Origin: a virus
Direction: 5' to 3' (one strand)
Length of the DNA stretch: 64,000 bases
Virus record (IMG/VR): IMGVR_UViG_3300044614_001845
Coordinates: 1 to 64,000 of that record
Part shown: positions 2,253 through 19,657 of the stretch, piece by piece
Layout of the letters: every line of letters begins with the position of its first letter
Numbering within the stretch: position 1 is the stretch's first letter
Notes under the pieces: model-generated
Told to the model about the DNA's origin: nothing
Databases searched by the model: none
Seen by the model: the letters and a program-made list of their open reading frames with translations, nothing else
Translations under genes and position numbers: made by a program

Positions 2253-2326
2253 TTCAGTCGCATTTGAGCGCTTGCTAGAGCAAGCGAAATAAATAAATAA
2301 TTACTAATTAAAATAATAGCTATAGA

Positions 2327-2363
2327 CAATAAAAAACCCTCAGCTGCGTGAGCAACTAAGGGC
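2327..2363 (-). terminator. Intrinsic terminator closing the first early operon
   Basis: The minus-strand RNA forms an 11-bp stem (GU pairs included) with a 4-nt loop between 2337 and 2362, followed by six U. It lies 30 nt after the stop of the 57-residue gene and ends the transcript that begins at the promoter at 3418-3491. Confidence 0.85.
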
Positions 2364-2392
2364 GAGTGAATAAAAGTAACACTACATGCAAA

Positions 2393-2566
2393 TTAACGCA
2401 CGCAGTTGGGTTCTAAATTATCCAGCTCAGCAGTAACTAAACAAGCTTTGTATTCCAGGTATTTTTCAACCTCTACTACATACAAATTTGTTGCACTTGC
2501 AACTAATAGAGGGGCGCCAATAATAACTGCTGTGCAAGCACAAATCTTTGCAAATGACGCAATCAT
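2393..2566 (-). CDS. Small membrane or exported protein
   Basis: A 57-residue protein (MIASFAKICACTAVII...). Residues 8-30 form one hydrophobic segment that could be a transmembrane anchor or an uncleaved signal. The rest is acidic and ends LEPNCVR. Last gene of the first early operon, two bases after the 54-residue gene and just before the terminator. No family recognised. Confidence 0.65.
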   Translation of the reverse strand: MIASFAKICACTAVIIGAPLLVASATNLYVVEVEKYLEYKACLVTAELDNLEPNCVR

Positions 2567-2567
2567 T

Positions 2568-2732
2568 TCAGTTGCTCCAATTTGATTTACAGACTTGCGA
2601 AACGTAATAATACGCTCGCCCGTGTTCAGAAAATTGATACTCGTCTTTCATTTTCAACGCATCAGCTTTGTTTTCAAATTCATCAACAGTCTCATCGTAA
2701 TTTCCAGATTGACGATTAACAAAGTAAGTCAT
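2568..2732 (-). CDS. Small conserved-looking phage protein
   Basis: A 54-residue protein with the order TVDEFENKADALKMKDEYQF then YYYVSQVCKSNW. The pattern (short beta strand, helix with A..M..EY, terminal Y..S..CK.W) is one I associate with small proteins scattered through phage genomes, without known function. Same operon as its neighbours. Confidence 0.65.
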   Translation of the reverse strand: MTYFVNRQSGNYDETVDEFENKADALKMKDEYQFSEHGRAYYYVSQVCKSNWSN

Positions 2733-2767
2733 GAGAAAAAATGCGAGTGAGTCAATAACGTATCTTA

Positions 2768-2959
2768 TTAAGTTAATTGTTCAATAAGTTCATCACGCAT
2801 TTTCTCAAGATTATCTCCTGCCCAAATGTCAAGAGTCTTATCTGCAAATTTAATCGCCTCCCAAAGTTTAGCATGATCCCTCCAGTCCACAATATCTTTG
2901 TCAATCGCAATTAACAAATCAAGAACGCAAAGCTTTAAGCGTTTTTCTTGTTCAGTCAT
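2768..2959 (-). CDS. Hypothetical early protein
   Basis: 63 residues, all-helical appearance, strongly charged, no motif recognised. Begins MTEQEKRLKLCVLDLLIAID. Spaced like its neighbours in the first early operon. Confidence 0.6.
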   Translation of the reverse strand: MTEQEKRLKLCVLDLLIAIDKDIVDWRDHAKLWEAIKFADKTLDIWAGDNLEKMRDELIEQLT

Positions 2960-2992
2960 AACTAAAAATGCGAATGAGTAAAAATAAACAAA

Positions 2993-3187
2993 TCAGCAAA
3001 CTAACGGATTTGCGTCCTCCACATAAACAACTTTTGCCATCGCCAAAATATCTTCATTCAAAATCCTTTTGTTGCGTCGCATAATGTTTTGCGCTTTTTT
3101 AATCGCAAGCGATTCGCAATCATCAACCTCTGTCACAACAACTTCCCCGCAGCCGTAAGGAAATCGAACTGTGTAACGAGTAAACAT
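2993..3187 (-). CDS. Hypothetical early protein
   Basis: 64 residues. An N-terminal beta-rich part (YTVRFPYGCGEVVVTEVDD) precedes a basic helix (AIKKAQNIMRRNKRI). No known family. Member of the operon driven from 3418-3491. Confidence 0.6.
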   Translation of the reverse strand: MFTRYTVRFPYGCGEVVVTEVDDCESLAIKKAQNIMRRNKRILNEDILAMAKVVYVEDANPLVC

Positions 3188-3221
3188 GAGCTTTTTGAAA
3201 TGAACGTGTAAATTAAATTAG

Positions 3222-3386
3222 TCAGTCATCGAATTTTGTGATCTCCCATCCAAGTTCTTCAATTAAGAAATCTTCTGCTCCTGCTTCTGCATCTTCCAAG
3301 AACTCAAGGAAGAAATCGAGCACCTCCATCAATCTATGTACGATGAACAACATTGCGACGATGCAGTAGGAAATGAATTCGCGCAT
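3222..3386 (-). CDS. Small membrane protein, acidic tail
   Basis: 54 residues from the ATG at 3386; a TTG 14 codons upstream is possible but unlikely. A hydrophobic helix at about residues 6-18 (YCIVAMLFIVHRL) is followed by an acidic amphipathic stretch. First gene after the promoter at 3418-3491. Confidence 0.6.
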   Translation of the reverse strand: MREFISYCIVAMLFIVHRLMEVLDFFLEFLEDAEAGAEDFLIEELGWEITKFDD

Positions 3387-3417
3387 GAATCTTTTGTTGA
3401 AATTAAATAAACAACAC

Positions 3418-3491
3418 GAACAAAACAAGCACTCCTTGCCCTGTTCATAACACCATTATAGCACTTATCACGCTATGTGTCAAGTACTAAT
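3418..3491 (-). promoter_or_regulatory. Early promoter cassette 1 with +1 hairpin
   Basis: Minus strand: conserved ATTAGTAC, then TTGACA (3478-3483), 17-nt spacer ending GTGC (extended -10), TATAAT (3455-3460). The predicted +1 is near 3448. A 12-bp stem including GU pairs runs from 3446 to 3418 with a 5-nt loop, so the RNA would start with a hairpin. Drives the genes 3386 down to 2393. Confidence 0.93.
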
Positions 3492-3502
3492 CAAAACGAG
3501 TT

Positions 3503-3988
3503 TCATTGCAAATCATCATACGCAACCAATCTTTCATACAAATACTTTCCTTGTCGATTACGATAAAACAATCTCGGCGCATGATGTAAACTCCCTAGGC
3601 AAACAACTACCTTGAAATCAATCTGCTCGTACTTATTAATCAAACACATGCACGTCAAACTAAACAATCTGCGTAGTGAACAATAATAATCATCAACGTA
3701 ACTCGTCGTATGATAAAACTTATAATTGCTACTATCAACAAATAACTCTCGATTGCTTCTTACACATTCTCGCACGTACTCTTCTTTTAATTCAACTGCG
3801 CTAACAAAATTATACTCATCATCGCAATCATAATTCTGCAAAGAAATCCAGGGCAACGAACAAACATCGTCAGGGGCGAGAAATAAAACTCTCTGTGCTT
3901 TGAATCTTTGCAAATACTCTTTCGCGCACTTTAATCTACGTTTGACTTCAATCAAACTAAATTCATCAGTGCGTGCAACTCTGCTCAT
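3503..3988 (-). CDS. Hypothetical protein
   Basis: 161 residues, rich in Cys and Tyr (for example SLTCMCLINKYEQIDFKVVVCLGSL). No family recognised. It ends 12 nt before the conserved start of promoter cassette 1. It lies downstream of the 4105-4138 terminator, and no consensus promoter precedes it in the 180-nt gap, so how it is expressed is unclear. Confidence 0.65.
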   Translation of the reverse strand: MSRVARTDEFSLIEVKRRLKCAKEYLQRFKAQRVLFLAPDDVCSLPWISLQNYDCDDEYNFVSAVELKEEYVRECVRSNRELFVDSSNYKFYHTTSYVDDYYCSLRRLFSLTCMCLINKYEQIDFKVVVCLGSLHHAPRLFYRNRQGKYLYERLVAYDDLQ

Positions 3989-4104
3989 AACAAATCTGTT
4001 TTGCGTGCAAATCTATTCGACTGAGCGCATGAATCCATCCCTCGCGCAAATGCCCCTGTAAGCCCTCTCAAATCTCTCCCCGCATGAATCCCTCTCAGCG
4101 CAAA
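3989..4104. other. Non-coding spacer with GCGCA..GAATC motifs
   Basis: No gene seen. The stretch repeats short GCGCATGAATCC-like words (around 4025, 4076 and 4098) that recur in the spacer at 10221-10361. Confidence 0.5.
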
Positions 4105-4138
4105 TAAAAACCCCCTTCCAGAGGCTTCTGGAGGGGGC
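4105..4138 (-). terminator. Intrinsic terminator after the exported-protein gene
   Basis: The minus-strand RNA forms a GC-rich stem (CCCCCTCCAG paired with CTGGAAGGGGG) followed by five U, 30 nt after the stop at 4168. Closes the operon begun at promoter cassette 2. Confidence 0.9.
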
Positions 4139-4167
4139 TCACGAATCTTCTCGTCGCAGGAATCAAC

Positions 4168-4437
4168 TCACTTCATGTATTTCGGGCAGAGTTTTGAAAT
4201 CGCAATCATTGCTTGCAAAATATCCGAGTCAACTAATTTGCCGTGCCATGTAACTTTTACAGCTTCTCCAGAAGAAATGTATGCTTCTTCTGTCGCAACT
4301 CTCATTGAATCTTGAACGGATAATCCTGCTGCACGCATTTTACAAAATTCAAATGCGTACAAATTAGGAAGCAGTTGTCCTGCATTAACAGCGCAGGGCG
4401 CAAGAATAAAAGTCAGTGCGAAAATGAACTTTTTCAT
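4168..4437 (-). CDS. Small secreted protein with signal peptide
   Basis: 89 residues from the ATG at 4437. The N-terminus MKKFIFALTFILAPCAVNA is a textbook signal peptide with a predicted cut after VNA. The mature part has two Cys (FCKMRAAGLS..., LCPKY near the C-terminus) that could form a disulfide in the periplasm. An exported protein in the early block could alter the host envelope, for example superinfection exclusion (inference). Last gene before a terminator. Confidence 0.75.
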   Translation of the reverse strand: MKKFIFALTFILAPCAVNAGQLLPNLYAFEFCKMRAAGLSVQDSMRVATEEAYISSGEAVKVTWHGKLVDSDILQAMIAISKLCPKYMK

Positions 4438-4438
4438 G

Positions 4439-4633
4439 TCAGTCCTTAATTTGTGAGATTTGAATAATTTCCTTTGTCGGGAAATTCTTTTTGAAGTAAT
4501 TGAGTGCATCGTCACGATCAACGCACTCTTCAATAGTTGTCCAACCAATAAATCCTCTTGCTTTGATGTCCTCAAATAAGATGCGATACTTTTGTAATCG
4601 CTGCTTGCGATAATTCTCAGTCAAATGATTCAT
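4439..4633 (-). CDS. Hypothetical early protein
   Basis: 64 residues, basic N-terminal helix (NYRKQRLQKYRILFEDIKARG), then a mixed fold. Overlaps the upstream gene by four bases (ATGA-type coupling), which supports translation. No family recognised. Confidence 0.65.
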   Translation of the reverse strand: MNHLTENYRKQRLQKYRILFEDIKARGFIGWTTIEECVDRDDALNYFKKNFPTKEIIQISQIKD

Positions 4634-4818
4634 TTGAGAACGTGAACGTAATTCAACGACTTAATACAATACCCTATTGCGCATGTAATCTCTTCAACCA
4701 AATCATCTTCGTCATCCGCCTCCCAGAAAGAAAACAAAACATTGTCATAAATCTCGTCTTGTGTTTCAGTGTCGAGATCATCAAAATCAAATTCGACTTC
4801 AGTAACTTGATAATTCAT
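4630..4818 (-). CDS. Acidic hypothetical early protein
   Basis: 62 residues and very acidic (EFDFDDLDTETQDEIYDN, then EADDEDDLVEEITCAIGYCI). Phages often carry small proteins of this composition; no function is known to me. A DNA mimic is conceivable from charge alone but untested. Confidence 0.65.
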   Translation of the reverse strand: MNYQVTEVEFDFDDLDTETQDEIYDNVLFSFWEADDEDDLVEEITCAIGYCIKSLNYVHVLK

Positions 4819-4821
4819 GAT

Positions 4822-5199
4822 TCAATCAATAATTTCTGAAAAGGGCAAACGAGAAAGATTCCCGTATTTTGTGATTGACTCTACGACGTACTCGCAGAAA
4901 TCTTGCGCGTAATTTGCACGCGCATAATCTTTACCAATTAAATACTGTCGCTCAATTTTGTATTCAGGCTCACGAATGTCCGTTAGCGTTAAAATAATTT
5001 CCCACTTAGGGCAAGCAACTCCGAGGAAATCTTCCTCGTCGCTTGTGTATTCTTGAACGGCAAATTGAACAATTTGTTTTTCGCCTCCTTCACTTTCCTC
5101 GTCCTCAAAAACACAAATCTCATCGCTTTCAATTCTCCCGCCGTGAAATCCACGAGAAAAATCCTCCCAGGTAATTTTTTGAACAAGTGAAGTTGTCAT
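4822..5199 (-). CDS. Acidic hypothetical early protein
   Basis: 125 residues, strongly acidic, beta-rich in appearance (QIVQFAVQEYTSDEEDF, KWEIILTLTDI). No motif recognised. Ten bases after the preceding gene's stop in the operon of promoter cassette 2. Confidence 0.65.
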   Translation of the reverse strand: MTTSLVQKITWEDFSRGFHGGRIESDEICVFEDEESEGGEKQIVQFAVQEYTSDEEDFLGVACPKWEIILTLTDIREPEYKIERQYLIGKDYARANYAQDFCEYVVESITKYGNLSRLPFSEIID

Positions 5200-5208
5200 G
5201 ATTAAAAA

Positions 5209-5508
5209 TCAGAAGCGAACGTAATTTTCTGCGGCAATAAAGCGCAGTGTGAAAATCTCTTCGTCTTTGTCATTAACTTTGTAGCTTGCTTGAAATCCTC
5301 CTGACGAAACTACGTCGTGATCGCGCTCTGCAGAAAATAATAAGCCGATGCACTTATCACGCATCTCATCAATCGTTGCAAATCGCAGTCCGTCATACAT
5401 CGCCCACTTCCAATCAACAGCGTGCATTAATTTTTCGACGCGCTCGAAATTAAAGTTGTCGAGCAGTTGAAAAATCGCGTCAGTGGTTTTGTCGGTTGAA
5501 ACAATCAT
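5209..5508 (-). CDS. Hypothetical early protein
   Basis: 99 residues. Contains VDWKWAMYDG and a C-terminal beta segment (EEIFTLRFIAAENYVRF). First gene after promoter cassette 2; GAGAG lies just before the ATG. No family recognised. Confidence 0.65.
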   Translation of the reverse strand: MIVSTDKTTDAIFQLLDNFNFERVEKLMHAVDWKWAMYDGLRFATIDEMRDKCIGLLFSAERDHDVVSSGGFQASYKVNDKDEEIFTLRFIAAENYVRF

Positions 5509-5543
5509 CTCTCTGAAAAATAAACAACGGTGAAAGAAATAAA

Positions 5544-5623
5544 TCAGCGAGAAAAAGAAGTTACTCTCTCCCCCGCTGACTTCTTCATTATAGCATGTAT
5601 CACATGCTATGTCAAGTAGTAAT
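5544..5623 (-). promoter_or_regulatory. Early promoter cassette 2 with +1 hairpin
   Basis: TTGACA (5610-5615), 17-nt spacer, TATAAT (5587-5592), with extended -10 GC. Predicted +1 near 5580; hairpin arms TCAGC and GCTGA span 5579 to 5544, with internal GAGA/TCTC pairing. The -35 lies inside the last codons of the upstream gene, whose final Leu-Thr is encoded by TTGACA. Confidence 0.92.
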
Positions 5624-5888
5624 CTGTTCGCTTGTCTTTGTAAATACCCTCTCTAATCAAAATCTGTTTAGCAGCAAGAATAACAATGTCGCATAACGTC
5701 TTCTGTGTGAACAAATACTTTTTTCTGTACTTGTTTTTTAAGTAGCATAAAACATTTGTTGAACATGCGGACAAAGAAACATCAGATAGATTCTCGTGAT
5801 CCTTTGACTTTTTAATGTGCTTGTAACTCATTGACGTGCGAATAATGCGAATGACATCTTCATCAACGAATTTGCTCAGATCATTCAT
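5607..5888 (-). CDS. Hypothetical protein overlapping a promoter
   Basis: 93 residues from the ATG at 5888. Helical and basic (MSYKHIKKSKDHENLS, KYRKKYLFTQKTLCDIVILA). Its last three codons and stop form the -35 and the start of the spacer of promoter cassette 2. The ATG overlaps the upstream gene's end. No family recognised. Confidence 0.65.
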   Translation of the reverse strand: MNDLSKFVDEDVIRIIRTSMSYKHIKKSKDHENLSDVSLSACSTNVLCYLKNKYRKKYLFTQKTLCDIVILAAKQILIREGIYKDKRTDYYLT

Positions 5889-6085
5889 TTTTTCAGACAA
5901 ATGAACCTACCTCCGACGATTGCGTCTCTGGTGAAAATAAGTCGTTCTGCTGGGCAATTATAAAAAGCATGATTGCTCAGCTTTTCGTTAATAAGTCTAG
6001 CACCAACAAAACCTAGTGTGGCGCCAATAAAAATAGCACCGCAAGCACCAATAAACTCTTTGTGCTCAAGATAAAAGTCTTTCAT
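5885..6085 (-). CDS. Small single-pass membrane protein
   Basis: 66 residues from the ATG at 6085, which overlaps the upstream stop (ATGA). A glycine-rich hydrophobic helix (FIGACGAIFIGATLGFVGA) covers about residues 10-30. Function unknown. Confidence 0.65.
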   Translation of the reverse strand: MKDFYLEHKEFIGACGAIFIGATLGFVGARLINEKLSNHAFYNCPAERLIFTRDAIVGGRFICLKK

Positions 6086-6372
6086 TTGAGATAGAATCCT
6101 CCAGATTCCCAAGAAATTACGCTGTCGGGTGGATTGAAATCCGTCTTGATGCTTGCAAAGTATTCGCCTTCCATTCCGTAAAGAATGGGCAAATCAACTT
6201 CAACATCATCGCCAAATTGTTCTTTGGCCCAATGAATCACTTGAGTTTCTAAATCAAGCAAATCATCATCTTTGATCTCTCTGAAATAATGATCACCTGA
6301 AGGACAGTGATAAACATACAAATAAGTCTCGTGGGGCGCGACTTTCAAAAGATCTTTCATTGAAATTAACAT
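6082..6372 (-). CDS. Hypothetical early protein
   Basis: 96 residues, acidic; an alternative ATG lies four codons in (6360). Contains YLYVYHCPSGDHYFREIKDD. Two bases after the upstream gene. No family recognised. Confidence 0.65.
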   Translation of the reverse strand: MLISMKDLLKVAPHETYLYVYHCPSGDHYFREIKDDDLLDLETQVIHWAKEQFGDDVEVDLPILYGMEGEYFASIKTDFNPPDSVISWESGGFYLK

Positions 6373-6374
6373 GT

Positions 6375-6689
6375 CTAATTGAAAAGAACCTTGAGATTCT
6401 CAATCCAAGAACGTCGTGCAAAATCAAATACGACGCCCTTAAAGTATCTGCTGAACGCGATTCGCAAATGAATCGGCGGCAGCCAGTAATTCATTGCAAA
6501 GTTAATTTGCAATCGAACTCGCCCCAGATACAAATAAAATCGGGGCTGTATGCACCAAGGCTGCCATGAATCAATGAAAAACAAAAATTGCCATTCTTGA
6601 TTCGTGAACAAGGAAATACGCCGAAAGATTGAATAATCTTCTTTATTGAAGACTAAATCAATCATGTACTCGTCTGAGTAGTTAAGCAT
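6375..6689 (-). CDS. Aromatic-rich hypothetical protein
   Basis: 104 residues from the ATG at 6689. Unusually rich in Phe, Tyr and Trp (EWQFLFFIDSWQPW, RFYLYLGRVRLQINFAMNYW). No family recognised. Transcribed from promoter cassette 3. Confidence 0.6.
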   Translation of the reverse strand: MLNYSDEYMIDLVFNKEDYSIFRRISLFTNQEWQFLFFIDSWQPWCIQPRFYLYLGRVRLQINFAMNYWLPPIHLRIAFSRYFKGVVFDFARRSWIENLKVLFN

Positions 6690-6700
6690 TGCAGGACAAA

Positions 6701-7108
6701 TCAAAGAGTGGAAACATAGTCAATAACGTCTTGCGGCAATTCTTCTTTCAGCCACGCGGATCCATATTTATGTCCATCATCAATAAGAGAATCAAGCCCA
6801 TGCAAATAATCGCAAGCTTTCTCATAAGTAGAAACATCAGAGCCTTTATTTTTTGCCTGTCGCAGAATTTCCTCTTGCACAAATGTTCCAGCTCGCATGT
6901 CATTCAAATGCCAACGCTTCCAAATATCATACAAACGCGCAGGAATGAAATCTTTTACGCTTTCACGAATCTGCCCAAAACCAGTCTCTTCGCCGTCTTC
7001 AAAAATAATCCCGGAAATGCTTAGCCTCTTAAATGAATTGCGCTCAGCAATTTCAATGCTAATCTCGCAGTCAAAATCTGAACCGCTGTAGTAAAGAACT
7101 TTTTTCAT
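6701..7108 (-). CDS. Hypothetical early protein
   Basis: 135 residues. Starts with a beta hairpin-like part (VLYYSGSDFDCEISIEIAER) and continues helical. First gene after promoter cassette 3. No family recognised. Confidence 0.65.
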   Translation of the reverse strand: MKKVLYYSGSDFDCEISIEIAERNSFKRLSISGIIFEDGEETGFGQIRESVKDFIPARLYDIWKRWHLNDMRAGTFVQEEILRQAKNKGSDVSTYEKACDYLHGLDSLIDDGHKYGSAWLKEELPQDVIDYVSTL

Positions 7109-7144
7109 GAATCTGTGAAATTAAACGAGCAGTGAACAAATAAA

Positions 7145-7221
7145 CAAGCGAGAAAAAAACTACTTCTCTCGCCTGTTCCCTACTATTATAGCACGTATCA
7201 CCTTACGTGTCAAGTACTAAT
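7145..7221 (-). promoter_or_regulatory. Early promoter cassette 3 with +1 hairpin
   Basis: ATTAGTAC followed by TTGACA (7208-7213), 17-nt spacer, TATAAT (7185-7190), extended -10 TGC. Predicted +1 near 7178; a 9-bp stem (CAGGCGAGA with TCTCGCTTG) spans 7175 to 7145, with a U-rich loop. The upstream gene's TAG stop lies within the conserved ATTAG. Confidence 0.93.
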
Positions 7222-7714
7222 TTGCCTCCTTTCTAAAATAACCATCCCACCAAGTCTTTGATTCTTCAATCTGCGCTAACATTTGATTGCAGAAATTCCT
7301 GGCATCTTTCTCGTCTTCGTAAATGTACGGGTATTGATCAAATTCATAAACACCGTGATAATCTACAAGCGCTAAATAAGCACTTGCCCGTGTTACGACA
7401 TTCGTACTAACTAATTTACTAACAAAATCATCAAAATCTATCTCATTGAATTCTGCAACTTCGCTCAACGAATCACTAAACCATTCAGTATGCGTCGCAT
7501 GAAATTTATTCGTGCCAACAAAAGTATTCTCCTCAATAATACGATGACACGGCTCTAGTGTAATTTCACTGCGCTTTTTGAAATCCTGATCGTAAATCAA
7601 CATGATCGAATCATAAATACCACGGCGATCAATGCAAACAAATGCGCCGCCATGCTCAAATGGGTCAGCATCACCAAGATTTGCGATGCAAAAATAAGAA
7701 GGCTGTACAGTCAT
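7217..7714 (-). CDS. Acidic hypothetical protein
   Basis: 165 residues, acidic, beta-rich N-terminus (YFCIANLGDADPFEHGGAFV). Overlaps the upstream gene by one base. Its stop codon is part of promoter cassette 3. No family recognised. Confidence 0.65.
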   Translation of the reverse strand: MTVQPSYFCIANLGDADPFEHGGAFVCIDRRGIYDSIMLIYDQDFKKRSEITLEPCHRIIEENTFVGTNKFHATHTEWFSDSLSEVAEFNEIDFDDFVSKLVSTNVVTRASAYLALVDYHGVYEFDQYPYIYEDEKDARNFCNQMLAQIEESKTWWDGYFRKEAN

Positions 7715-7980
7715 TAGTTTGTTAATGCAATGTAACGAAAATGCGAGTATTCACCAGAAGCAATTGATTTGTTAATTTCTTCTAATGAATCAATGGCAGT
7801 AATTGCCATCCAAGTTGTATCAGAAATTTTTACGTCAATAGTTTCGTAATCATGATGACAAATGTGAAAAGTCTTGTCGCAAATAAATTCGTAGTAAATT
7901 ACGTCATCTTTTAGATCAAAGAATCCATCACGCGGTAAACCTGAAACCTCTTCGCGTAGTTCCTCAAGCGTGAAATTCAT
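7714..7980 (-). CDS. Hypothetical early protein
   Basis: 88 residues, acidic, mixed secondary structure (DDVIYYEFICDKTFHICHHD). Coupled tightly to the gene below. No family recognised. Confidence 0.65.
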   Translation of the reverse strand: MNFTLEELREEVSGLPRDGFFDLKDDVIYYEFICDKTFHICHHDYETIDVKISDTTWMAITAIDSLEEINKSIASGEYSHFRYIALTN

Positions 7981-7982
7981 GA

Positions 7983-8147
7983 TTAAACCTCTGGAATTCC
8001 TGAAAATTTACTGTCGCTGATTTCAAAGTATTCGTAATAAAAACCCTTTGGAATTGATTTAATTGCAGCCTCCAGTGATGGTGCCGTGACTCTGTAAATA
8101 TCGTTGAATTTATTAAAAAAGATGTAAGTTCGCTTTGTTAAGCTCAT
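7983..8147 (-). CDS. Small hypothetical early protein
   Basis: 54 residues (MSLTKRTYIFFNKFNDIYRV...), filling the gap between two tightly spaced genes with two- and three-base spacers. The spacing and frame are the main evidence. No family recognised. Confidence 0.6.
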   Translation of the reverse strand: MSLTKRTYIFFNKFNDIYRVTAPSLEAAIKSIPKGFYYEYFEISDSKFSGIPEV

Positions 8148-8150
8148 AGA

Positions 8151-8432
8151 TCAAATATGCGGGGTGGGATAATTAAACTCTGTGCCCGTAGAAAGCTTTG
8201 TAATTTCAATGTCTTCTTTGGGCAAACAAATCAAAGCCTGATCAAGAACCATTTTTGCAAATTCTTCTGATGCAGGCTTTGCATCAATCATCTTGCCGTC
8301 TTGCGTTGTTTTCTCCATACGAAAACAATTTTCAAATGCGCCCCAATGAATTCGATGAAAGCGCACAATAAATAACTGTTTCGCATCTCGTCTGTCAAAG
8401 AGACGAAACTCTTGAATTTGTCGAATGTTCAT
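8151..8432 (-). CDS. Hypothetical early protein
   Basis: 93 residues. FIVRFHRIHWGAFENCFRME suggests beta strands; the middle is helical. Three-base spacing on both sides in the cassette 4 operon. No family recognised. Confidence 0.65.
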   Translation of the reverse strand: MNIRQIQEFRLFDRRDAKQLFIVRFHRIHWGAFENCFRMEKTTQDGKMIDAKPASEEFAKMVLDQALICLPKEDIEITKLSTGTEFNYPTPHI

Positions 8433-8435
8433 GAA

Positions 8436-8690
8436 TCAAGCCTGTTCGTAGAAGTTAACAAATGCGACTGTGCAGCTGCCAATCGGGCGCAGTTCAAAAT
8501 AGTCTCCGTTGTCAAATGTTTTGCAACGAACACCAGTCAGCCCGAGTTCTTTTTTTGCAGCAGTAACAATTTGTCGCTGCGTTGCATTTTCTTGTGTGAA
8601 AAATGTACCGCGACGCACCCACGAATAATTTGCTTCACCAGCAAATGTATCTGTGTACTCGCATGTCCACTTGAAAACTTTGTCGCTCAT
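8436..8690 (-). CDS. Conserved-type small phage protein
   Basis: 84 residues: FKWTCEYTDTFAGEANYSWV, then KKELGLTGVRCKTFDNGDYF and RPIGSCTVAFV. I recognise this order as a small protein recurring in phage genomes, function unknown. First gene after promoter cassette 4. Confidence 0.7.
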   Translation of the reverse strand: MSDKVFKWTCEYTDTFAGEANYSWVRRGTFFTQENATQRQIVTAAKKELGLTGVRCKTFDNGDYFELRPIGSCTVAFVNFYEQA

Positions 8691-8718
8691 GATTTTCTGT
8701 GAAATAAAAAAGAAACAA

Positions 8719-8798
8719 ATGCGACGAAAAAGAAAGTAGTTCTCTCCCGTCGCATGTCTACATTATAGCACGTATCAGCTTACGTGTCAAGTATTAAT
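8719..8798 (-). promoter_or_regulatory. Early promoter cassette 4 with +1 hairpin
   Basis: TTGACA (8785-8790), 17 nt, TATAAT (8762-8767), extended -10. Predicted +1 about 8755, exactly where a perfect 8-bp stem (ATGCGACG with CGTCGCAT) begins; the hairpin spans 8755 to 8719. Confidence 0.94.
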
Positions 8799-9055
8799 CA
8801 ATCCGCATAGGCAAAAGAATAACGCTCGTTATACAAATCGCAGGCGTATTTTTCTTCATTGCTAATTTCATCTTCGCCACACCTTGAATCAATCCAGTCG
8901 GGCGACAATTCATTGCAGTCGAGCATGTCACGAATTTGATCGTGACTCATGAATTTAAGACACGCGAGAAGTAAATCGTTTTCCGTCGTATGTTCTTCCT
9001 CAAGTAACTGCATCGCGTAATCGCGTGGATCGTCTTGAAAATTGTCGAAGTCCAT
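8798..9055 (-). CDS. Acidic conserved-type phage protein
   Basis: 85 residues, very acidic. LLLACLKFMSHDQIRDMLDC followed by NELSPDWI is a pattern I associate with small phage proteins of unknown role. Second gene of the cassette 5 operon; its stop directly adjoins cassette 4. Confidence 0.65.
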   Translation of the reverse strand: MDFDNFQDDPRDYAMQLLEEEHTTENDLLLACLKFMSHDQIRDMLDCNELSPDWIDSRCGEDEISNEEKYACDLYNERYSFAYAD

Positions 9056-9064
9056 TTTCTGAAA

Positions 9065-9250
9065 TTAAAAGGGGTTTGTCCAGGAATTTGCTTGGCGATC
9101 AGTTATCTCGCCGTCTCTATGCAATGTGTCGATGAAATCAACAAATGCTTGTCGTTTTGCAACAACATCATTCTTTTGTTCTGGGCATTGGAACTTAATG
9201 TAATGCGCCCATTCATCATTAAACATTGAAACGGCTTGTTTGTTTGTCAC
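9065..9250 (-). CDS. Hypothetical early protein
   Basis: 61 residues with a GTG start at 9250. Contains FNDEWAHYIKFQCPEQKNDV. First gene after promoter cassette 5. No family recognised. Confidence 0.55.
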   Translation of the reverse strand: MTNKQAVSMFNDEWAHYIKFQCPEQKNDVVAKRQAFVDFIDTLHRDGEITDRQANSWTNPF

Positions 9251-9275
9251 GGAAATAAATGCAAATGAACAAAAG

Positions 9276-9348
9276 TGCGATAAAAACTAATGCTCTCATC
9301 GCAACAAGTGCATTGTAGCAGTTATCATGTTATTTGTCAAGTATTAAC
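9276..9348 (-). promoter_or_regulatory. Early promoter cassette 5 with +1 hairpin
   Basis: TTGACA (9335-9340), 17 nt, TACAAT (9312-9317), TGC extended -10. Predicted +1 near 9305; arms TGCGAT and ATCGCA span 9303 to 9276. The upstream stop TAA lies in the conserved block before the -35. Confidence 0.9.
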
Positions 9349-9631
9349 CTTCCACCTCCGAATAACTAACGCCGGGCATACCGCAAAGAAAGTTAGGACG
9401 ATTTAATTTTTTATGCACATAGTTAACGTATTCGTTGAATGTTGCCGCAGGAACATTGCCAAACAAATACATGTGAAGCTTCAATGCTTCTCCCTTCGCA
9501 TACAAATTAATAATGTCTTTATCTTGATCGTCTGCGATCTCTTTGTTGATTTCTAGTGCGTAATCAAGAATGTCCTGTTTGCAGGAAAATTGAGCACGAA
9601 AGTTCATGATGTCCTGATTTGTGAGTTGCAT
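9344..9631 (-). CDS. Hypothetical early protein
   Basis: 95 residues, helical (QDILDYALEINKEIADDQDK) with a C-terminal FLCGMPGVSYSE. Seven-base gap from the upstream gene. No family recognised. Confidence 0.65.
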   Translation of the reverse strand: MQLTNQDIMNFRAQFSCKQDILDYALEINKEIADDQDKDIINLYAKGEALKLHMYLFGNVPAATFNEYVNYVHKKLNRPNFLCGMPGVSYSEVEG

Positions 9632-9638
9632 AATTGAA

Positions 9639-9854
9639 TCAACCGTTTACAATTTGCTGAAATTGATCAAAAACTTTTTGCTTTGAACCCTTCAGATTAA
9701 ATTGATTTTTGATTACCGAATAAGCAGATTGCCCTCTAGAAATCTTCATGCCTTTAATTTCCAGGGCCAGTGCTCGCAGTAAAACTTTCATTCGATAAAT
9801 CTGAATGTCGTCACCTGAAATAACAGTGCCGCCGTCAAAATTTTCAATTGCCAT
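9639..9854 (-). CDS. Conserved-type small phage protein
   Basis: 71 residues with SGDDIQIYRMKVLLRALALE then GMKISRGQSAYSVIKNQFNL. This order recurs in many phage genomes without assigned function; the basic helical C-terminal half could contact nucleic acid (inference). First gene after promoter cassette 6. Confidence 0.7.
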   Translation of the reverse strand: MAIENFDGGTVISGDDIQIYRMKVLLRALALEIKGMKISRGQSAYSVIKNQFNLKGSKQKVFDQFQQIVNG

Positions 9855-9874
9855 GAAATTAAAAAAGAAACAAC

Positions 9875-9951
9875 TGCGACAAAAGAGATCAGATCTCTCT
9901 CATCGCATGTGACTATTATAGCACTTATCACGTTCCTTGTCAAGTACTAAT
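9875..9951 (-). promoter_or_regulatory. Early promoter cassette 6 with +1 hairpin
   Basis: ATTAGTAC and TTGACA (9938-9943), 17 nt, TATAAT (9915-9920), TGC extended -10. Predicted +1 near 9908; stem TGCGA/TCGCA plus inner AGAGATC/GATCTCT spans 9907 to 9875. The whole core promoter lies inside the 3' end of the upstream gene; TATAAT falls in its Cys-Tyr-Asn-Ser codons. Confidence 0.93.
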
Positions 9952-10220
9952 TTGATGACTTCTTTAGCAAATATCTTTTGATCACAAACATTGCACGTTA
10001 GAAATCTATCATTTTTATTCACGCAGTCTGTCTTAATGATCCAGGAATCAAGCGTCGCAAATCTTTCACGAAATACGTGACAGCATTGTGCGCAAGCAAT
10101 AAAATTGCCATGAGTCAAAACGTATCTAGTCTTTGAGTGTCTTCTATTTGTCAGAAACTGCGCTGCAAGAATGTCCGCCGTGCGTAGTGAATAGCTCTTT
10201 GAACTCATCAAATCAATCAT
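9900..10220 (-). CDS. Zinc-binding-type protein ending in a promoter
   Basis: 106 residues. Two CxxC pairs (CAQC near residue 43, CNVC near 76) suggest a zinc ribbon. The last 20 or so codons contain promoter cassette 6, so the protein ends DKCYNSHMR. No consensus promoter precedes it. Function unknown. Confidence 0.6.
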   Translation of the reverse strand: MIDLMSSKSYSLRTADILAAQFLTNRRHSKTRYVLTHGNFIACAQCCHVFRERFATLDSWIIKTDCVNKNDRFLTCNVCDQKIFAKEVIKLVLDKERDKCYNSHMR

Positions 10221-10361
10221 CCATAAGTAAATCTACCTAGCCCTTAAAAGCCCCTGCAGTGCTCACGAATCTGACTGGCGCAGAAATACCCGTGACGGGC
10301 GCAGAAAGCTGCTACTGGGGCAGGAATCAAGGGCTGAGGGCGCAGAAATCAACCAGCTGAA
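10221..10361. other. Non-coding spacer with GCGCAGAAATC motifs
   Basis: No gene seen. Words of the form GGCGCAGAAAT occur at about 10277, 10298 and 10338, and GCTCACGAATCT (10261-10272) is identical to 4137-4148. Arms AGCCCTT near 10239 and AAGGGCT near 10328 could pair, but no U-run follows. Confidence 0.5.
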
Positions 10362-10547
10362 TCAAGAATCCAGCGTTTTCTTGATACGAGCGTGAAGATC
10401 TTTGTAAAGAATACGAACTTCTTTCCACGCCCGCTCATTTTCTTCTTTTGTGCCGCCCTTAATCAAAGGGACAAAGTTTTCACCAAAATTGTGCATAAAT
10501 GAAATTGCGGACAACAAAGCAAGTTTTTCTTTTTTACTCAGTGACAT
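10362..10547 (-). CDS. Hypothetical early protein
   Basis: 61 residues, helical and basic (SLSKKEKLALLSAISFMHNF). Overlaps the upstream gene by 14 bases. Last gene of the cassette 7 operon. No family recognised. Confidence 0.6.
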   Translation of the reverse strand: MSLSKKEKLALLSAISFMHNFGENFVPLIKGGTKEENERAWKEVRILYKDLHARIKKTLDS

Positions 10548-10860
10548 CGTTCATTTCACGAATGATCCTGTTCGCCTGTGCAACTGTGCTTTGTGCAAAT
10601 ATCTCGCACAGCATCGAAAGTTGCTCGTCGTCAAATGCCTCAATAATCTTTAGGGGCGAACAAAATACTTGCATTTCATTGAAGTTGCCACTATTCATTT
10701 CTTGATAAAAAAGCAGAACTGCTGTAGTAAGCAGCTCCGCCTCAAGAACATAACAATGCAAAATCTCTTCTGCTGTTAGCTTGGATGAATCTCTGTCGCC
10801 ATTTTTAAGCGACATGTAATTCATCACAAGTCTGTCAGAATCTGCAATTCCTTGCATCAT
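10534..10860 (-). CDS. Hypothetical early protein
   Basis: 108 residues, all-helical appearance (KLTAEEILHCYVLEAELLTT). Overlaps the upstream gene by four bases, ATGA coupling. No family recognised. Confidence 0.65.
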   Translation of the reverse strand: MMQGIADSDRLVMNYMSLKNGDRDSSKLTAEEILHCYVLEAELLTTAVLLFYQEMNSGNFNEMQVFCSPLKIIEAFDDEQLSMLCEIFAQSTVAQANRIIREMNDVTE

Positions 10861-11405
10861 CCCTTCGCCTCCATTTTTTCTTGAAACGCACGAGCATAAA
10901 TCTCATTAGCGGTTACAGGTGCCTCCCCGCCGCTGTTGTCATAAAGAAACTGCGGGGTTGGGTCAATAGTGCCAAACTCAATCGCAAATTGACGCTGTTC
11001 GTTCATCAAGTATTCTGCTGTCGCAAAAAACTCGTCGGGATCCGTGCCCGAATCAACTAACTCGCCGCCTTCTTTAATCTCCCAGTAAACATCGTGACCA
11101 TCATGATAATTAACTTGATAGTAAACGGGCTGAGCTACTTCTGAACGTGGAATAATCTGCGTAGCATCAATGAAAATCTCGCAATTTTCAGGCTGATCGC
11201 CGCTGTGAATCTCTGCAATCATTTGCAGCACGTCTTTCATAGCGTCCTCCCCGCTTTTTTGTGAAACATTTTTCGTGAATTTTTTGGTCTCTTTATCGTA
11301 ACCAAGCTTGTAGCGATTGACAAGCCAGAGAGCAGTATTTGACATTTCTTGATCGAAATAATCTGGTGGATCGAGAGGGCGAGGGTCGTAAATAAAGTCA
11401 GACAT
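10857..11405 (-). CDS. Acidic hypothetical protein
   Basis: 182 residues. Proline-rich N-terminus (YDPRPLDPPDYFDQEMS), helical middle, beta-rich section (QPVYYQVNYHDGHDVYWEIK). Overlaps the upstream gene by eight bases. No family recognised. Confidence 0.65.
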   Translation of the reverse strand: MSDFIYDPRPLDPPDYFDQEMSNTALWLVNRYKLGYDKETKKFTKNVSQKSGEDAMKDVLQMIAEIHSGDQPENCEIFIDATQIIPRSEVAQPVYYQVNYHDGHDVYWEIKEGGELVDSGTDPDEFFATAEYLMNEQRQFAIEFGTIDPTPQFLYDNSGGEAPVTANEIYARAFQEKMEAKG

Positions 11406-11601
11406 TTACTTTGTGAGCGAAAATGGATTGTGCAAAACGTGAGCCCGGTCCGTAAGCTTCAACAAGCTCAGGGAACGCTTTAATAATCTTTTGCTTGTTT
11501 GTACTGTCTGCCGCGCAAATTGCATCAGCCAGCTTTGTGCAGAAACTGCCGCCATAGCGACGCATGGTTTCTGTGAGAATGTAAAAATCGTCTGAAGTCA
11601 T
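11398..11601 (-). CDS. Hypothetical early protein, start corrected
   Basis: 67 residues from the ATG at 11601 (MTSDDFYILTETMRRYGGSF...). An open frame extends to an ATG at 11682, but that codon overlaps the -35 hexamer of cassette 7 and lies upstream of the predicted transcription start near 11652, so it cannot be used by that transcript. The sequence before 11601 (TTTCACAGA) matches the leader before other first genes of these operons. Confidence 0.65.
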   Translation of the reverse strand: MTSDDFYILTETMRRYGGSFCTKLADAICAADSTNKQKIIKAFPELVEAYGPGSRFAQSIFAHKVNV

Positions 11602-11630
11602 TTCTCTGTGAAAAGAATTTGCTTGTGAGA

Positions 11631-11695
11631 AGAGCGACTCGATTGCCGCTCTCAGTGCATTGTAAGCGACGACGCGGCACATGTCAAGTACTAAT
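11631..11695 (-). promoter_or_regulatory. Early promoter cassette 7 with +1 hairpin
   Basis: ATTAGTAC and TTGACA (11682-11687), 17 nt, TACAAT (11659-11664); no TGN extension here. Predicted +1 about 11652, where the arm AGAGCG begins; its partner CGCTCT ends at 11631. Confidence 0.88.
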
Positions 11696-11699
11696 CAAT

Positions 11700-12113
11700 T
11701 CAGCTTAAATAAATTTTGCCGTCATCGCCAACGCAGGTAAAGATTTCATACTGACTACGCGCCGCATCTGTAAGAATTTCTGAAACCTCAGAAGCCCAGT
11801 CGCCGTCCCAAAATCCAGCGCCATGATGATTCCTGGTAAGTATGTAATCGTATTCGGTTTGATTTTCGCTTGGTTGCATTAAATCATAAAAGTCATCAAT
11901 GCTGTCCCAAGTGTCGCCAACTTTTTCCATTATCTTGGGTTCAACAATCTCAATAAATTGCTGAAACTCGTTGTAAAGACTTTCTAGTGACTTTTGATCA
12001 AAGTCATTGATGCTGTAATTTTTATCAAGCGGCACGCCGTCAAAATCGCACTCCGTATAGAGAATTGTTTCTGCGAGTGCCTGAGCCGTTGGGTTCACAG
12101 TAATCATCGTCAT
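11700..12113 (-). CDS. Conserved-type phage protein
   Basis: 137 residues from the ATG at 12113. The signature LTRNHHGAGFWDGDW followed by VGDDGKIYLS is one I recognise from a small phage protein family of unknown function. The stop lies just before the conserved block of cassette 7. Confidence 0.7.
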   Translation of the reverse strand: MTMITVNPTAQALAETILYTECDFDGVPLDKNYSINDFDQKSLESLYNEFQQFIEIVEPKIMEKVGDTWDSIDDFYDLMQPSENQTEYDYILTRNHHGAGFWDGDWASEVSEILTDAARSQYEIFTCVGDDGKIYLS

Positions 12114-12115
12114 CT

Positions 12116-12433
12116 TCAATAAAGATTACCAAGTTCAAATTCTTTTAATGCTGAAATTGCTAATTCAGTCGAAACAAATGCAATAATCTCCGGTTTGTTT
12201 GTAAAAAAGAAATCTTTGTCACTCGCAAACTTCGCCCAATAAAGCGAGAAATGCGAGCCAGCAAAAGTTGTGGCGCGACTAACAGAGCTGGGCAGATAAT
12301 CAAAATGACCCTCCTGGGAAAGCGCGTAAATCTGACATAGATCACGCATCAACTGATTAAATGTTTTGCCGTCGTGATTTTCCAAAAACAGCAAATACTT
12401 GCCGCTTTCTTCACGTAATTTAAGTGATGACAT
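12116..12433 (-). CDS. Hypothetical early protein
   Basis: 105 residues; first gene after promoter cassette 8. Contains HFDYLPSSVSRATTFAGSHF and a C-terminal helix. No family recognised. Confidence 0.65.
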   Translation of the reverse strand: MSSLKLREESGKYLLFLENHDGKTFNQLMRDLCQIYALSQEGHFDYLPSSVSRATTFAGSHFSLYWAKFASDKDFFFTNKPEIIAFVSTELAISALKEFELGNLY

Positions 12434-12448
12434 TTTTCTGACGATAAA

Positions 12449-12515
12449 AAAGACCGCTCTGTGTTGAACGGTCTTTGTATTATAGCATCAATCGCAAGAC
12501 TTGTCAAGTACTAAT
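12449..12515 (-). promoter_or_regulatory. Early promoter cassette 8 with terminator-like hairpin
   Basis: ATTAGTAC and TTGACA (12502-12507), 17 nt, TATAAT (12479-12484), TGC extended -10. A perfect 8-bp stem (AAAGACCG with CGGTCTTT) spans 12476 to 12449 and runs into six T. The hairpin begins within a few nt of +1 and looks like a complete intrinsic terminator, which would also stop read-through from cassette 9. The upstream stop TAG is inside ATTAG. Confidence 0.93.
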
Positions 12516-12816
12516 CTTGACTGGCTCTTTCACACATTTGCTGAAATGTAATAAATCCAAGATCGTCATCCATTCCCTCCGCCTGCATAATTTTTTCTCG
12601 CAGTTCAGATATTTGATTGACGTGCCTCATGATCACATCAGCCTTAACGGCGAGAGTTGTATAAATCTCACGACTTAACCAAGGCGTCAAAAAAGCAGCA
12701 ATTTGTGCTTTTGTTTTTTCTCGCTTGAGTGTTTTAATGCAATCCTCAAGCTGTAAATGCAATCCCAGTAGGAGCGCGTTTAACTCGTAAGTGTAAAGCT
12801 CTGATTTTAGTTTCAT
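12511..12816 (-). CDS. Hypothetical early protein
   Basis: 101 residues, entirely helical in appearance (YELNALLLGLHLQLEDCIKT, AEGMDDDLGFITFQ). Its stop is part of cassette 8. Three bases after the upstream gene. No family recognised. Confidence 0.65.
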   Translation of the reverse strand: MKLKSELYTYELNALLLGLHLQLEDCIKTLKREKTKAQIAAFLTPWLSREIYTTLAVKADVIMRHVNQISELREKIMQAEGMDDDLGFITFQQMCERASQD

Positions 12817-12819
12817 GAT

Positions 12820-13281
12820 TCAATCAAGATAGCGGGAAGCTTTGCCACAGAAAACAAGATCCATGACACCGTGAAAATCAGTGGGAGCAACACTGTAATC
12901 ATAATCACCATTGCCCTTAGTGATGAAATAAAACCTTGCAGTTTCACGAATAATTTTGTTTTGAACGCTGGCGAGACGATCATCTTTCATCAAGCGCAGC
13001 ATGTGAATCTCGACCGATGAGAAATCATACTCAGATTCTTCTTGTTTGCGCTTTTCATAAAGCTTGCAATACATGGGAAGAAACAAACTGCCCAGCTCGC
13101 TAATCATCCACAAGCGTGTATCGCCTTCACGCATTTTATTCAAAATCTTTCGATCATGAATAGCAACGTCAGTCCAGTTGTGTCTGACAACATCTTCTGC
13201 TTCAAAACACATCCACTCGTGAAGCGTTTTATTTCGCAGAATACGTTTAACAGGCTCTTGCCTGCTAATAATTTGTGTCAT
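12820..13281 (-). CDS. Hypothetical early protein
   Basis: 153 residues from the ATG at 13281 (MTQIISRQEPVKRILRN...); a longer TTG start at 13296 is less likely. Helical, many charged residues. First gene after promoter cassette 9. No family recognised. Confidence 0.65.
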   Translation of the reverse strand: MTQIISRQEPVKRILRNKTLHEWMCFEAEDVVRHNWTDVAIHDRKILNKMREGDTRLWMISELGSLFLPMYCKLYEKRKQEESEYDFSSVEIHMLRLMKDDRLASVQNKIIRETARFYFITKGNGDYDYSVAPTDFHGVMDLVFCGKASRYLD

Positions 13282-13354
13282 TTGCACTGTACGCAAAGTT
13301 GAATGAAGAACGATGCCATTGTAACAGGTTTCAGCTTACTTGTCAAGTACTAAT
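13281..13354 (-). promoter_or_regulatory. Early promoter cassette 9
   Basis: ATTAGTAC and TTGACA (13341-13346), 17 nt, TACAAT (13318-13323), TGT extended -10. This copy lacks the +1 hairpin. Instead a short stem (TTTGC/GCAAA, 13297 to 13281) abuts the start codon of the first gene. It is the outermost copy. Confidence 0.9.
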
Positions 13355-13365
13355 CTGATTGCGCT

Positions 13366-13911
13366 TTACAAGAAAGAAACCTGGAGATCAGGGTAAATAA
13401 CTTTGTTCATCAAACGTGGCAAGATTTTTCTTGCTTCGCTGATTGGCAGAAATGGCTCCGTGCGAACAAACCCGCACTTTGAATAAGGACATACCCATTT
13501 CGCAATGTTGTTGTGAACATAAATCAATGGGTACTCACTCTTGTTGCCAATCCAAATACAACCTTCATCAACTGCAACATGCGAATTAAAGCGAGTGCGA
13601 ACAAATGGAAAGAAAGCGCCCTCAGCAGCTGCAAAATTATTGTAATCAAAGTAAATTCCACCCCACGCCCGCTGCTGTAACTGAAAGTATCTATCAGTAA
13701 AAAGCCCAGGTATTTGAAATTCTTTCATTGCATTGCGCTCAATATCCAACTGATCTTCATAAATACTTTTAAGCCTCAATGAATAAGATTTATTGTTTGT
13801 CAGCGCCTCTTTACAAAGCGCGAATCTTTTCTTCGTTTGCGTTTCTGTAAATAGCAGTGCTCCAGTCTCCGAATATTTGAAGTGCAATTTCTTCACTCGC
13901 CTTTGTGTCAT
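13366..13911 (-). CDS. Hypothetical protein
   Basis: 181 residues. Basic N-terminus (MTQRRVKKLHFKYSE), aromatic-rich middle (QRAWGGIYFDYNNFAAAEGA), and WVCPYSKCGFV near residue 140, a possible half zinc site. Overlaps the upstream frame by about 100 bases. No family recognised. Confidence 0.55.
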   Translation of the reverse strand: MTQRRVKKLHFKYSETGALLFTETQTKKRFALCKEALTNNKSYSLRLKSIYEDQLDIERNAMKEFQIPGLFTDRYFQLQQRAWGGIYFDYNNFAAAEGAFFPFVRTRFNSHVAVDEGCIWIGNKSEYPLIYVHNNIAKWVCPYSKCGFVRTEPFLPISEARKILPRLMNKVIYPDLQVSFL

Positions 13912-14359
13912 ACCTTTCGACTTCCGACAAAATTGGACGCTTTGTTACTATAAAGCCTTTCAGGTATTGATGAAGCTTCCATCCATAATCTTTTGCATCT
14001 AAATTCCAAAGCCATTCAAGTATTTGAAAAGAGCGCAGACGGCACCAATACCAGTAAGAACGAAACTTAACCGCGTCTGTTGGCAAAGAAATCTGCGCGA
14101 CATAAAAAGTCTCTGAGCAAAGAAACTCTCCAACTTCGGGAGCACCAATACGATTTATGAAATAATTATTCCACCATCGCTGTTTTAATTTGACGTTTGC
14201 TTTCAAAACCTGAAAATAGTATCTGCGTCGCATGACGTACAAAGCTTTCTCCTTCCAGTCAAGAGAAGCGTGCTTTCTAGCTTTTCCACTGCGCGGAGAA
14301 AAGTCGTGAGGAGCTAACTGAATCCGATGCTTGAAGGCTTTTTTTGTAGCGCTACTCAC
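13811..14359 (-). CDS. Hypothetical basic protein
   Basis: 182 residues with a GTG start. Highly basic first half (SSATKKAFKHRIQLAPHDFS, KQRWWNNYFINRIG) and many Trp and Tyr. First leftward gene of the divergent region at 14360-14423, where no consensus promoter could be fixed. No family recognised. Confidence 0.55.
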   Translation of the reverse strand: MSSATKKAFKHRIQLAPHDFSPRSGKARKHASLDWKEKALYVMRRRYYFQVLKANVKLKQRWWNNYFINRIGAPEVGEFLCSETFYVAQISLPTDAVKFRSYWYWCRLRSFQILEWLWNLDAKDYGWKLHQYLKGFIVTKRPILSEVERYDTKASEEIALQIFGDWSTAIYRNANEEKIRAL

Positions 14360-19606: not shown

Positions 19607-19657
19607 ATGCTTTGTCCACTCGACCACTCAGAAAACGTGTCGGTTCATCAGAAGCTC

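Follow-up and report, generated by a model that had tools for sequence, protein, structure and literature searches.

Hairpins locked to the predicted start sites of a phage early-promoter array: a selected fold that probably marks gene-unit boundaries

In the phage genome analysed here, eight of nine clustered gene units are each preceded by a composite cassette, in which a strong host-type promoter is followed, from the predicted first transcribed base on, by a hairpin and then by a U-rich stretch. Comparison with related phages indicates that the fold of these hairpins is itself under selection, and their job is probably to insulate each gene unit from its neighbour and to mark the border between the two. 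The window, that is, the whole stretch of DNA analysed (64,000 nt, positions 1 to 64,000 of IMGVR_UViG_3300044614_001845), carries on its minus strand nine promoters of the type TTGACA-17-TATAAT/TACAAT, spanning 3455-13346 (Table 1), versus 0.9 matches to the pattern expected by chance in 64 kb. A preliminary description had counted eight such promoters, which holds for those followed by a hairpin, but the series has a ninth, hairpin-free member (slot S9, at the head of the array), and arrays of this kind recur in relatives as well. All eight hairpin promoters are of a near-perfect σ70 type; seven are exact matches to TTGACA-17-TG-N-TATAAT/TACAAT, six of them 12/12, the one at 11659 lacking the TG, and a strong σ70-type early promoter is present in every cassette copy. 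The consensus of the promoter spacer is palindromic as well (CACGTA-N6-TACGTG). An RNA hairpin within the spacer, as in phage RB49, was nevertheless rejected, since both-side changes were found in 3 cells only and 207 of 500 shuffles scored as high, and this palindrome was taken instead for a DNA feature of operator type.

Table 1. Promoters, hairpins and closing terminator of the array in the window, by slot
Feature	Position	Strand	Remarks
S1 promoter	3455..3483	-	TTGACA-17-TATAAT; same slot found in L230, L232, L233, L234, L154
S2 promoter	5587..5615	-	pattern match
S3 promoter	7185..7213	-	pattern match
S4 promoter	8762..8790	-	pattern match
S5 promoter	9312..9340	-	TACAAT
S6 promoter	9915..9943	-	pattern match
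S7 promoter	11659..11687	-	TACAAT, no TG
S8 promoter	12479..12507	-	pattern match
S9 promoter	13318..13346	-	first of array; hairpin at +1 absent
S1 hairpin	3415..3449	-	15 bp, from about +1
S2 hairpin	5541..5582	-	19 bp uninterrupted, 2 pairs upstream of +1 (17 bp from +1); covariance model match
S3 hairpin	7142..7178	-	16 bp + 5-nt loop, from +1; covariance model match
S4 hairpin	8719..8755	-	16 bp + 5-nt loop, from +1; covariance model match
S5 hairpin	9276..9303	-	12 bp, from about +3
S6 hairpin	9875..9907	-	15 bp, from +2
S7 hairpin	11630..11653	-	9 bp; same slot in other phages has entirely different sequences
S8 hairpin	12449..12476	-	canonical intrinsic terminator, stem + T6; G-C core begins at +1
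Plain canonical terminator closing the array	2336..2363	-	U5-6; counterpart in L233, L234, L154

All eight hairpins claimed in the preliminary description are present on the minus strand, with their first paired base at the predicted +1 (a prediction from the spacing to the -10 box) and stems of 12-19 bp, or 7-9 bp in two shorter cases. The stems listed there are indeed paired but too short, since the AGAGA and the T-rich run that had been placed in the loops pair with each other and actually belong to the stem. Folded from the predicted +1, the six long hairpins of the window have z-scores between -3.6 and -6.2, and the short ones, S7 and S8, come to about -2 (200 dinucleotide shuffles each). 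The latter two have nothing in common with S1-S6, and both loops and stems vary freely between slots; within a genome, cassettes can be as much as 93% alike across 76 nt. Rfam returned no match above the gathering score in the window, and no credible one in 2300-14500 at a relaxed threshold. The position of the stem was also evaluated by locating, with +1 not assumed, the best hairpin with an uninterrupted stem among the first 100 nt: such a hairpin was found in 57 of 66 distinct cassettes from clades 1-2, the closest two, and its stem started between -3 and +5 in 54 of those 57. The stem start is, in this sense, locked to the predicted +1.

The relatives compared are viral contigs whose helicase is 58-100% identical and which carry the same arrays; besides the 66 cassettes of clades 1-2, the sample comprised 19 sites in clades 3-4. 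Comparing slot with slot in a single genome is weak evidence for structural selection, because unrelated hairpins would look alike in it; such selection is established by comparing each slot with its counterpart in other clades. In this comparison 377 changes affected both sides of a pair versus 246 that affected one. As regards compensation, 97.6% of cells were paired and 13 of 16 pairs had changed on both sides (41 cells), a score that exceeded all slid partners and that none of 500 shuffles equalled, the kept pairs including G-U. The suggestion that compensating changes reflect selection on RNA structure is thereby supported, covariance lying above the shuffled controls. Since the relatives keep the hairpin while its sequence changes, the fold itself is what these alignments place under selection, and across lineages the architecture is shown to be conserved with the stem sequence turning over. 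For S8 there is one C-G to U-A compensation across eight phages, and its covariation alone is too thin to count (83 of 500 shuffles as high).

Could T-rich leaders behind strong promoters simply fold by accident? The modest z-scores of S7 and S8 are what such an effect of composition would give, but long hairpins reach -3.6 to -7.7, and compensation surpasses all shuffles and all slid partners. Furthermore, unrelated phages with the same promoter motif, gathered by a loose pattern search of viral contigs, mostly lack the hairpin, one and the same hairpin criterion retrieving 48 of 62 clade sites versus 7 of 117 unrelated promoter sites. Chance is thus a negligible explanation for the set as a whole, and as the origin of S1-S6 it is already refuted. 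The matches of the covariance model are almost exclusively cassettes, and the hairpin cassettes appear specific to this phage lineage and rare elsewhere.

What lies past the stem resembles a terminator. T frequency is 0.60-0.85 at positions 2-9 past the stem, declining to about 0.35 at position 18, and the terminator score (formula of d'Aubenton-Carafa) is positive in 39 of 66 cassettes, versus 2 of 150 random minus-strand positions, with about 27 of the 66 not above zero. The likeness to intrinsic (rho-independent) terminators, a hairpin and then a U-rich stretch, is complete at S8, which is canonical in eight phages (U6 in the window) and has an A-tract upstream of +1 that can be paired only by read-through RNA; in relative L236, a canonical terminator is nested inside the S4 hairpin. 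The differences are the position directly downstream of a promoter and the interrupted U-tracts of S1-S7, which lack the uninterrupted U5-U6 run used at S8 and at the array end, for which reason most of them may terminate poorly. Among the cassettes, a hairpin directly followed by at least 5 U occurs only at S8 and inside S4 of L236, whereas plain terminators elsewhere in the array do have it. In clade 3 the U-tracts are weaker still, and both there and at S7 the hairpin is retained where the U-tract is poor. In clades 1-2, as in L291 and L294, the S9 promoter has no hairpin, and no σ70 promoter could be recognised in front of the two genes that lie upstream of it; S9 is a single slot, however, and its missing hairpin may have another cause.

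Judged from these sequence features and from predicted start sites, there is about an even chance that each cassette is a transcription-unit boundary, in which promoter and hairpin together thin read-through and the hairpin also pairs the 5' end of the new transcript. A polymerase arriving from the upstream unit would be released by the hairpin and the U-rich tract, mostly in part and fully at S8, so that each unit would be driven chiefly by its own promoter; upon initiation there, the same hairpin would form the 5' end of the new message, whose paired terminus would leave nothing unpaired for enzymes of the pyrophosphohydrolase or RNase E type. Of the three jobs proposed in the preliminary description, attenuation among them, the arrest of read-through is favoured by the T enrichment past the stem, by the lack of a hairpin at the first promoter only and by the canonical terminator at 12479. 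Protection of the 5' end is favoured by a stem start fixed at +1 and by the breaks in the U-tracts of the remaining hairpins. Against the terminator side of this boundary, an efficient terminator at +1 would also halt the transcripts of its own promoter; these might escape because most U-tracts are interrupted, or because a hairpin is inefficient so near +1.

Would protection of the 5' end suffice, with no role in termination? The 5' stem-loops of ompA and papA stabilise bacterial mRNA by slowing 5'-dependent decay. As in them, the stem lies a few nucleotides from the predicted 5' end and is followed by a single-stranded, AU-rich leader; unlike them, it recurs before eight units and is joined to terminator-like U-rich tracts. 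A pure stabiliser, pairing the first nucleotides of early messages, would account for the lock on the predicted +1, for U-tracts that are interrupted unlike those of the plain terminators in the same genomes, and for hairpins kept despite a poor U-tract, and in E. coli the pairing of 5'-terminal bases is an established means of stabilising messages, according to references cited in PMC3997798. It is rather unlikely on this analysis, given that the T enrichment is concentrated directly past the stem, that S8 has an A-tract of use to read-through RNA only, that the array's first promoter is the only one without a hairpin, and that T4-type phages offer a reported promoter-terminator precedent.

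A timed switch is unlikely, namely an attenuator or antitermination site, where a phage or host factor would override a conditional terminator or a polymerase-modifying leader. Polymerase-modifying leaders do exist (the put RNAs of HK022), terminator-like hairpins here occupy the very leader that their own promoter transcribes, and the hairpin style common to all units would allow one factor to serve them all. However, neither an alternative antiterminator fold nor a conserved protein-binding loop was seen in the cassettes, whose loops and stems differ freely between slots (S7 and S8 being unlike S1-S6), and no candidate antiterminator was identified.

The cassettes lie between gene units, and the genes adjoining conserved cassettes are swapped between relatives, with clear cases at S1, S3, S4 and S6. 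Of 119 alignment breakpoints, 27 lie no more than 40 nt from a cassette versus 16 expected, a modest excess over an expectation that takes no account of intergenic position, so that the cassettes are not claimed to cause the shuffling. Taken with an Erf-like annealing protein in the phage and the likeness of same-genome cassettes, this might suggest an element acting as DNA, through recombination homology or operator sites, with an inverted repeat that is not read as RNA. Stem turnover with pairing kept, G-U included, argues against a role as shared homology or as a fixed binding site, such an element would not need a stem locked to +1, and the shuffling may result from the cassettes rather than be their function, all of which makes a DNA-level element very unlikely.

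Among known systems, the boundary cassettes resemble most the PeSLs (promoter-early stem-loops) of T4-type phages, reportedly named 'composite conserved promoter-terminator motifs' by Arbiol et al. 2010 and Comeau et al. 2014, although the position of the hairpin differs. As reported for PeSLs, the cassettes here join a strong host-type early promoter to a stem-loop and repeat it between small early genes of unknown function, and the two systems may share the exchange of genes around conserved cassettes. In the RB49 sequence inspected, by contrast, GC-rich dyads (e.g., TTGACAGGGGATCGGTGATCCCCTATAAT) lie within the -35/-10 spacer or over the -10, and the promoter's own transcript consequently lacks the full stem, whereas here the stem runs from +1 without overlapping the promoter, so that every transcript would carry it whole. 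Most hairpins here also lack a strong U-run, and the phage is not a T4-type myovirus: its DnaB-type helicase and its major head protein belong to families, and have best matches, that are not T4-like. The nearest relatives of the two proteins do not support the earlier assumption of a cyanophage either; megablast against named phages gave no match, and for a phage σ factor no close relative was found in the genome contigs, comparison with the PDB indicating only a primary-type σ. Cluster K mycobacteriophages similarly have repeated inverted repeats (ESAS/SAS) upstream of many small non-structural genes, with a consensus varying by subcluster, but the ESAS adjoin start codons (PMC3203893) and the hairpins here lie at the +1 of strong promoters. 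The 13-bp SAS (GGGATAGGAGCCC), expected near start codons, is absent here, the single 2-mismatch match, at 43193, being at chance level.

A further proposal, still tentative and rather doubtful, is that of a dual-use RNA boundary, in which a single hairpin would end the message of the upstream unit as its 3'-terminal structure and open that of the downstream unit as its 5'-terminal cap. Selection acting on nothing but the fold would have preserved it in at least four lineages of phages; it would let early genes swap as self-contained units, and would have arisen apart from the T4-type motifs. Where the early regions of phages are tightly packed, many strong promoters must work in tandem without interference, and these arrays would be one solution, with a hairpin locked to the start site at every internal promoter and the first promoter alone without it. 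Their dozens of natural variants, alike in promoter and position but with different stems, make it directly testable what 5'-terminal pairing does and what weak terminators close to a promoter do. The cassettes also behave like plug points for the exchange of genes of unknown function.

The window (the first 64,000 of the 70,688 bases of the virus record) carries a string of small genes on its minus strand, starting at about 14,400 and ending near 2,300, and a search for Pfam families above the cut-off found none for nine of the array genes tested. The array is driven by nine promoters of one type (slots S1 to S9), six of which match TTGACA-17-TATAAT at 12/12 positions; most carry an extended TG, and ATTAGTAC or close variants are common to them immediately upstream. 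We infer that the array is early, because its promoters are of host type and the phage encodes its own sigma factor, which might possibly mediate a switch from TTGACA/TATAAT promoters to later ones.

Features of the window and their coordinates
Feature	Position	Strand	Remark
Slot S1 promoter	3455	-	slot numbering starts here
Slot S9 promoter	13318	-	transcribed first in the array
DnaB-like helicase	17062-18489		used to recruit relatives
Erf-like annealing protein	19607-20386		family assignment
Primary-type sigma factor, phage-encoded (PHROG 351)	29389-30411	+	family assignment

At eight of the nine promoters (S1-S8) a hairpin begins at the predicted +1, placed at the seventh base past the -10 box. 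Folded from this base, S1-S8 have free energies between -9 and -22 kcal/mol. The six long hairpins reach z-scores of -3.6 to -6.2 when compared with dinucleotide shuffles, and those of S7 and S8 about -2. The preliminary description, which reported eight hairpins with covarying stems, gives stem sequences that are right as far as they go but stop before the stems end: the AGAGA purine stretch and the T-rich run that it placed in the loops form the opposite arms of a single stem.

Related contigs were recruited by the promoter pattern and the helicase, and comprise clade 1 (helicase identity 93-100%; L229-L232, L235), clade 2 (about 64%; L233, L234, L236, L237, L154 and others), clade 3 (72-73%; L291-L293) and the single 98-kb relative L294 (58%); L229, L230 and L155, without the helicase gene, were recruited through their cassettes (promoter plus hairpin). 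No such array was seen in other contigs with helicases of around 60%. Taking the strongest uninterrupted hairpin within the first 100 nt, at a threshold of <= -7 kcal/mol, one is present in 57 of 66 distinct clade 1-2 cassettes (many of them closely related copies), beginning exactly at the predicted +1 in 30 and between -3 and +5 in 54; in clades 3-4 it occurs at 12/19 sites, always (12/12) beginning at +1 to +3. Since 48/62 clade sites have the hairpin versus 7/117 in unrelated phages that share the promoter motifs, it is no by-product of such promoters.

Clades 1 and 2 have arrays that are collinear throughout their slots, and hairpins of the same slot differ in sequence between them while keeping their pairing (672 pair comparisons identical, 246 with a one-side change and 377 with both-side changes and pairing, besides 412 positions paired in just one clade). 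S8 stems are clearly different between clades 1-2 and clade 3, and at S7 unrelated hairpins occupy the same place even within clade 1 (GAGAGCGGC..., CAGCAGCGC...). Thirteen hairpins, all exactly 37 nt long and taken from a number of slots and phages, could be aligned gap-free; in this alignment, standard pairs fill 97.6% of the cells of a 16-bp helix (shuffled mean 80.2), 13 pairs show both-side changes (shuffled 7.8) and covariation scores 0.752 (shuffled 0.381). None of 500 shuffles attains any of the three measures, a result that is not to be read as a probability, because shuffles do not preserve relatedness; this is covered in part by the between-clade comparison and by sliding the partners 1 to 3 columns, whereupon pairing falls to 52-68%. 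A covariance model built from the 13 rows matches mainly other cassettes, in sense orientation. There is also a good match (27.5 bits) outside the recognised cassettes, at L237:7310-7383 (-).

Other elements lie in and around the array. The -35/-10 spacers (3455-13346) have the palindromic consensus CACGTA-N6-TACGTG in clades 1-2, and ACCACT-N3-AGTGGT in clade 3; no RNA covariation was found in these palindromes, which look like a putative operator for a dimeric regulator. A 106-aa ORF (9900-10220, -) runs through the S6 promoter and stops within the S6 hairpin, so that promoter and stem bases would double as codons. The first genes of the nine units in the window have no Shine-Dalgarno motif (0/9), their start codons following A/T-rich leaders that end, e.g., in TTTCACAGATTC. 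A promoter-like TTGACA-17-TACACT (14880-14908, +), conserved in clades 1-2, precedes the rightward genes. Dense, imperfect GAATG repeats (600-760, +) adjoin the end of the early region, whose non-coding gaps hold patches of repeated CGCAGAAAT/GAATC-like units (4000-4140, 10245-10370, 1200-1440).

Regarding function, several features speak for termination of upstream read-through: T frequency is 0.60-0.85 at positions 2-9 after the stem and lower beyond, a terminator score (d'Aubenton-Carafa formula) is positive in 39/66 cassettes versus 2/150 random positions, S8 is a canonical terminator with T6, and at L236:13042 (slot S4) a canonical terminator is nested in the hairpin loop, with the outer +1 stem retained. 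Against a strong terminator, the U-tracts of S1-S7 are interrupted (TTTATTTC and GTTGTTTC are examples), in contrast to the runs of at least U5 at plain terminators in these arrays (2363-2336, 10741-10712). The lock of the stem start on the predicted +1 speaks for a cap role, for which the ompA and papA stem-loops at the 5' terminus serve as the model (references listed in PMC3997798); a purely 5'-end role is rather unlikely. Taken together, termination evidence, interrupted U-tracts and the lock on +1 lead us to favour, with about even confidence, a leaky boundary element exerting both terminator and cap (5'-end pairing) effects.

At S9 the +1 hairpin is absent in clades 1 and 2 and at the L291 and L294 counterparts; those of L292 and L293 have at best a weak uninterrupted stem, at another position, with a more stable overall fold, and L231 has a small stem from about +8. 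Despite this absence, the S9-driven gene retains 50-63% identity between lineages. In the eight phages inspected, the stretch of about 450 nt ahead of the two genes that precede S9 holds no promoter of sigma-70 type, save one poor 8/12 match, and S9 is therefore the array's first strong promoter. As the place with least to insulate against, it would match the lack of a hairpin, which, for one slot, is suggestive only.

The closest known kind is the promoter-early stem-loop (PeSL) of T4-type phages. In RB49, which we take to be one of the phages used to define PeSLs, the stem lies within the promoter, whereas here it lies at the predicted +1, and the covariance model finds no match in RB49. It is plausible that the cassettes work like PeSLs, but they are not assigned to them, differing in hairpin position and phage type. 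PeSLs are described, in titles cited in PMC4503421 and PMC5931544, as composite promoter-terminator motifs mediating modular shuffling. Between the window and clade 1 relatives, at S1, S3 and S6, the upstream gene (81-93% identical) and the cassette (81-99%) are shared, but the gene that follows is unrelated, its local scores equalling or barely differing from those of shuffled sequences. With L230, the window has the S4 cassette and its downstream gene in common, the upstream gene being different; with L232, it has the upstream gene and the S4 cassette in common, the downstream gene being different. In L236, the S6 gene shows 93% identity to one from clade 1, while its cassette and the sequence upstream resemble clade 2 more. 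Breakpoints are only mildly enriched near cassettes (27/119 versus 16 expected), so the cassettes are compatible with plug points for gene exchange and might possibly cause it.
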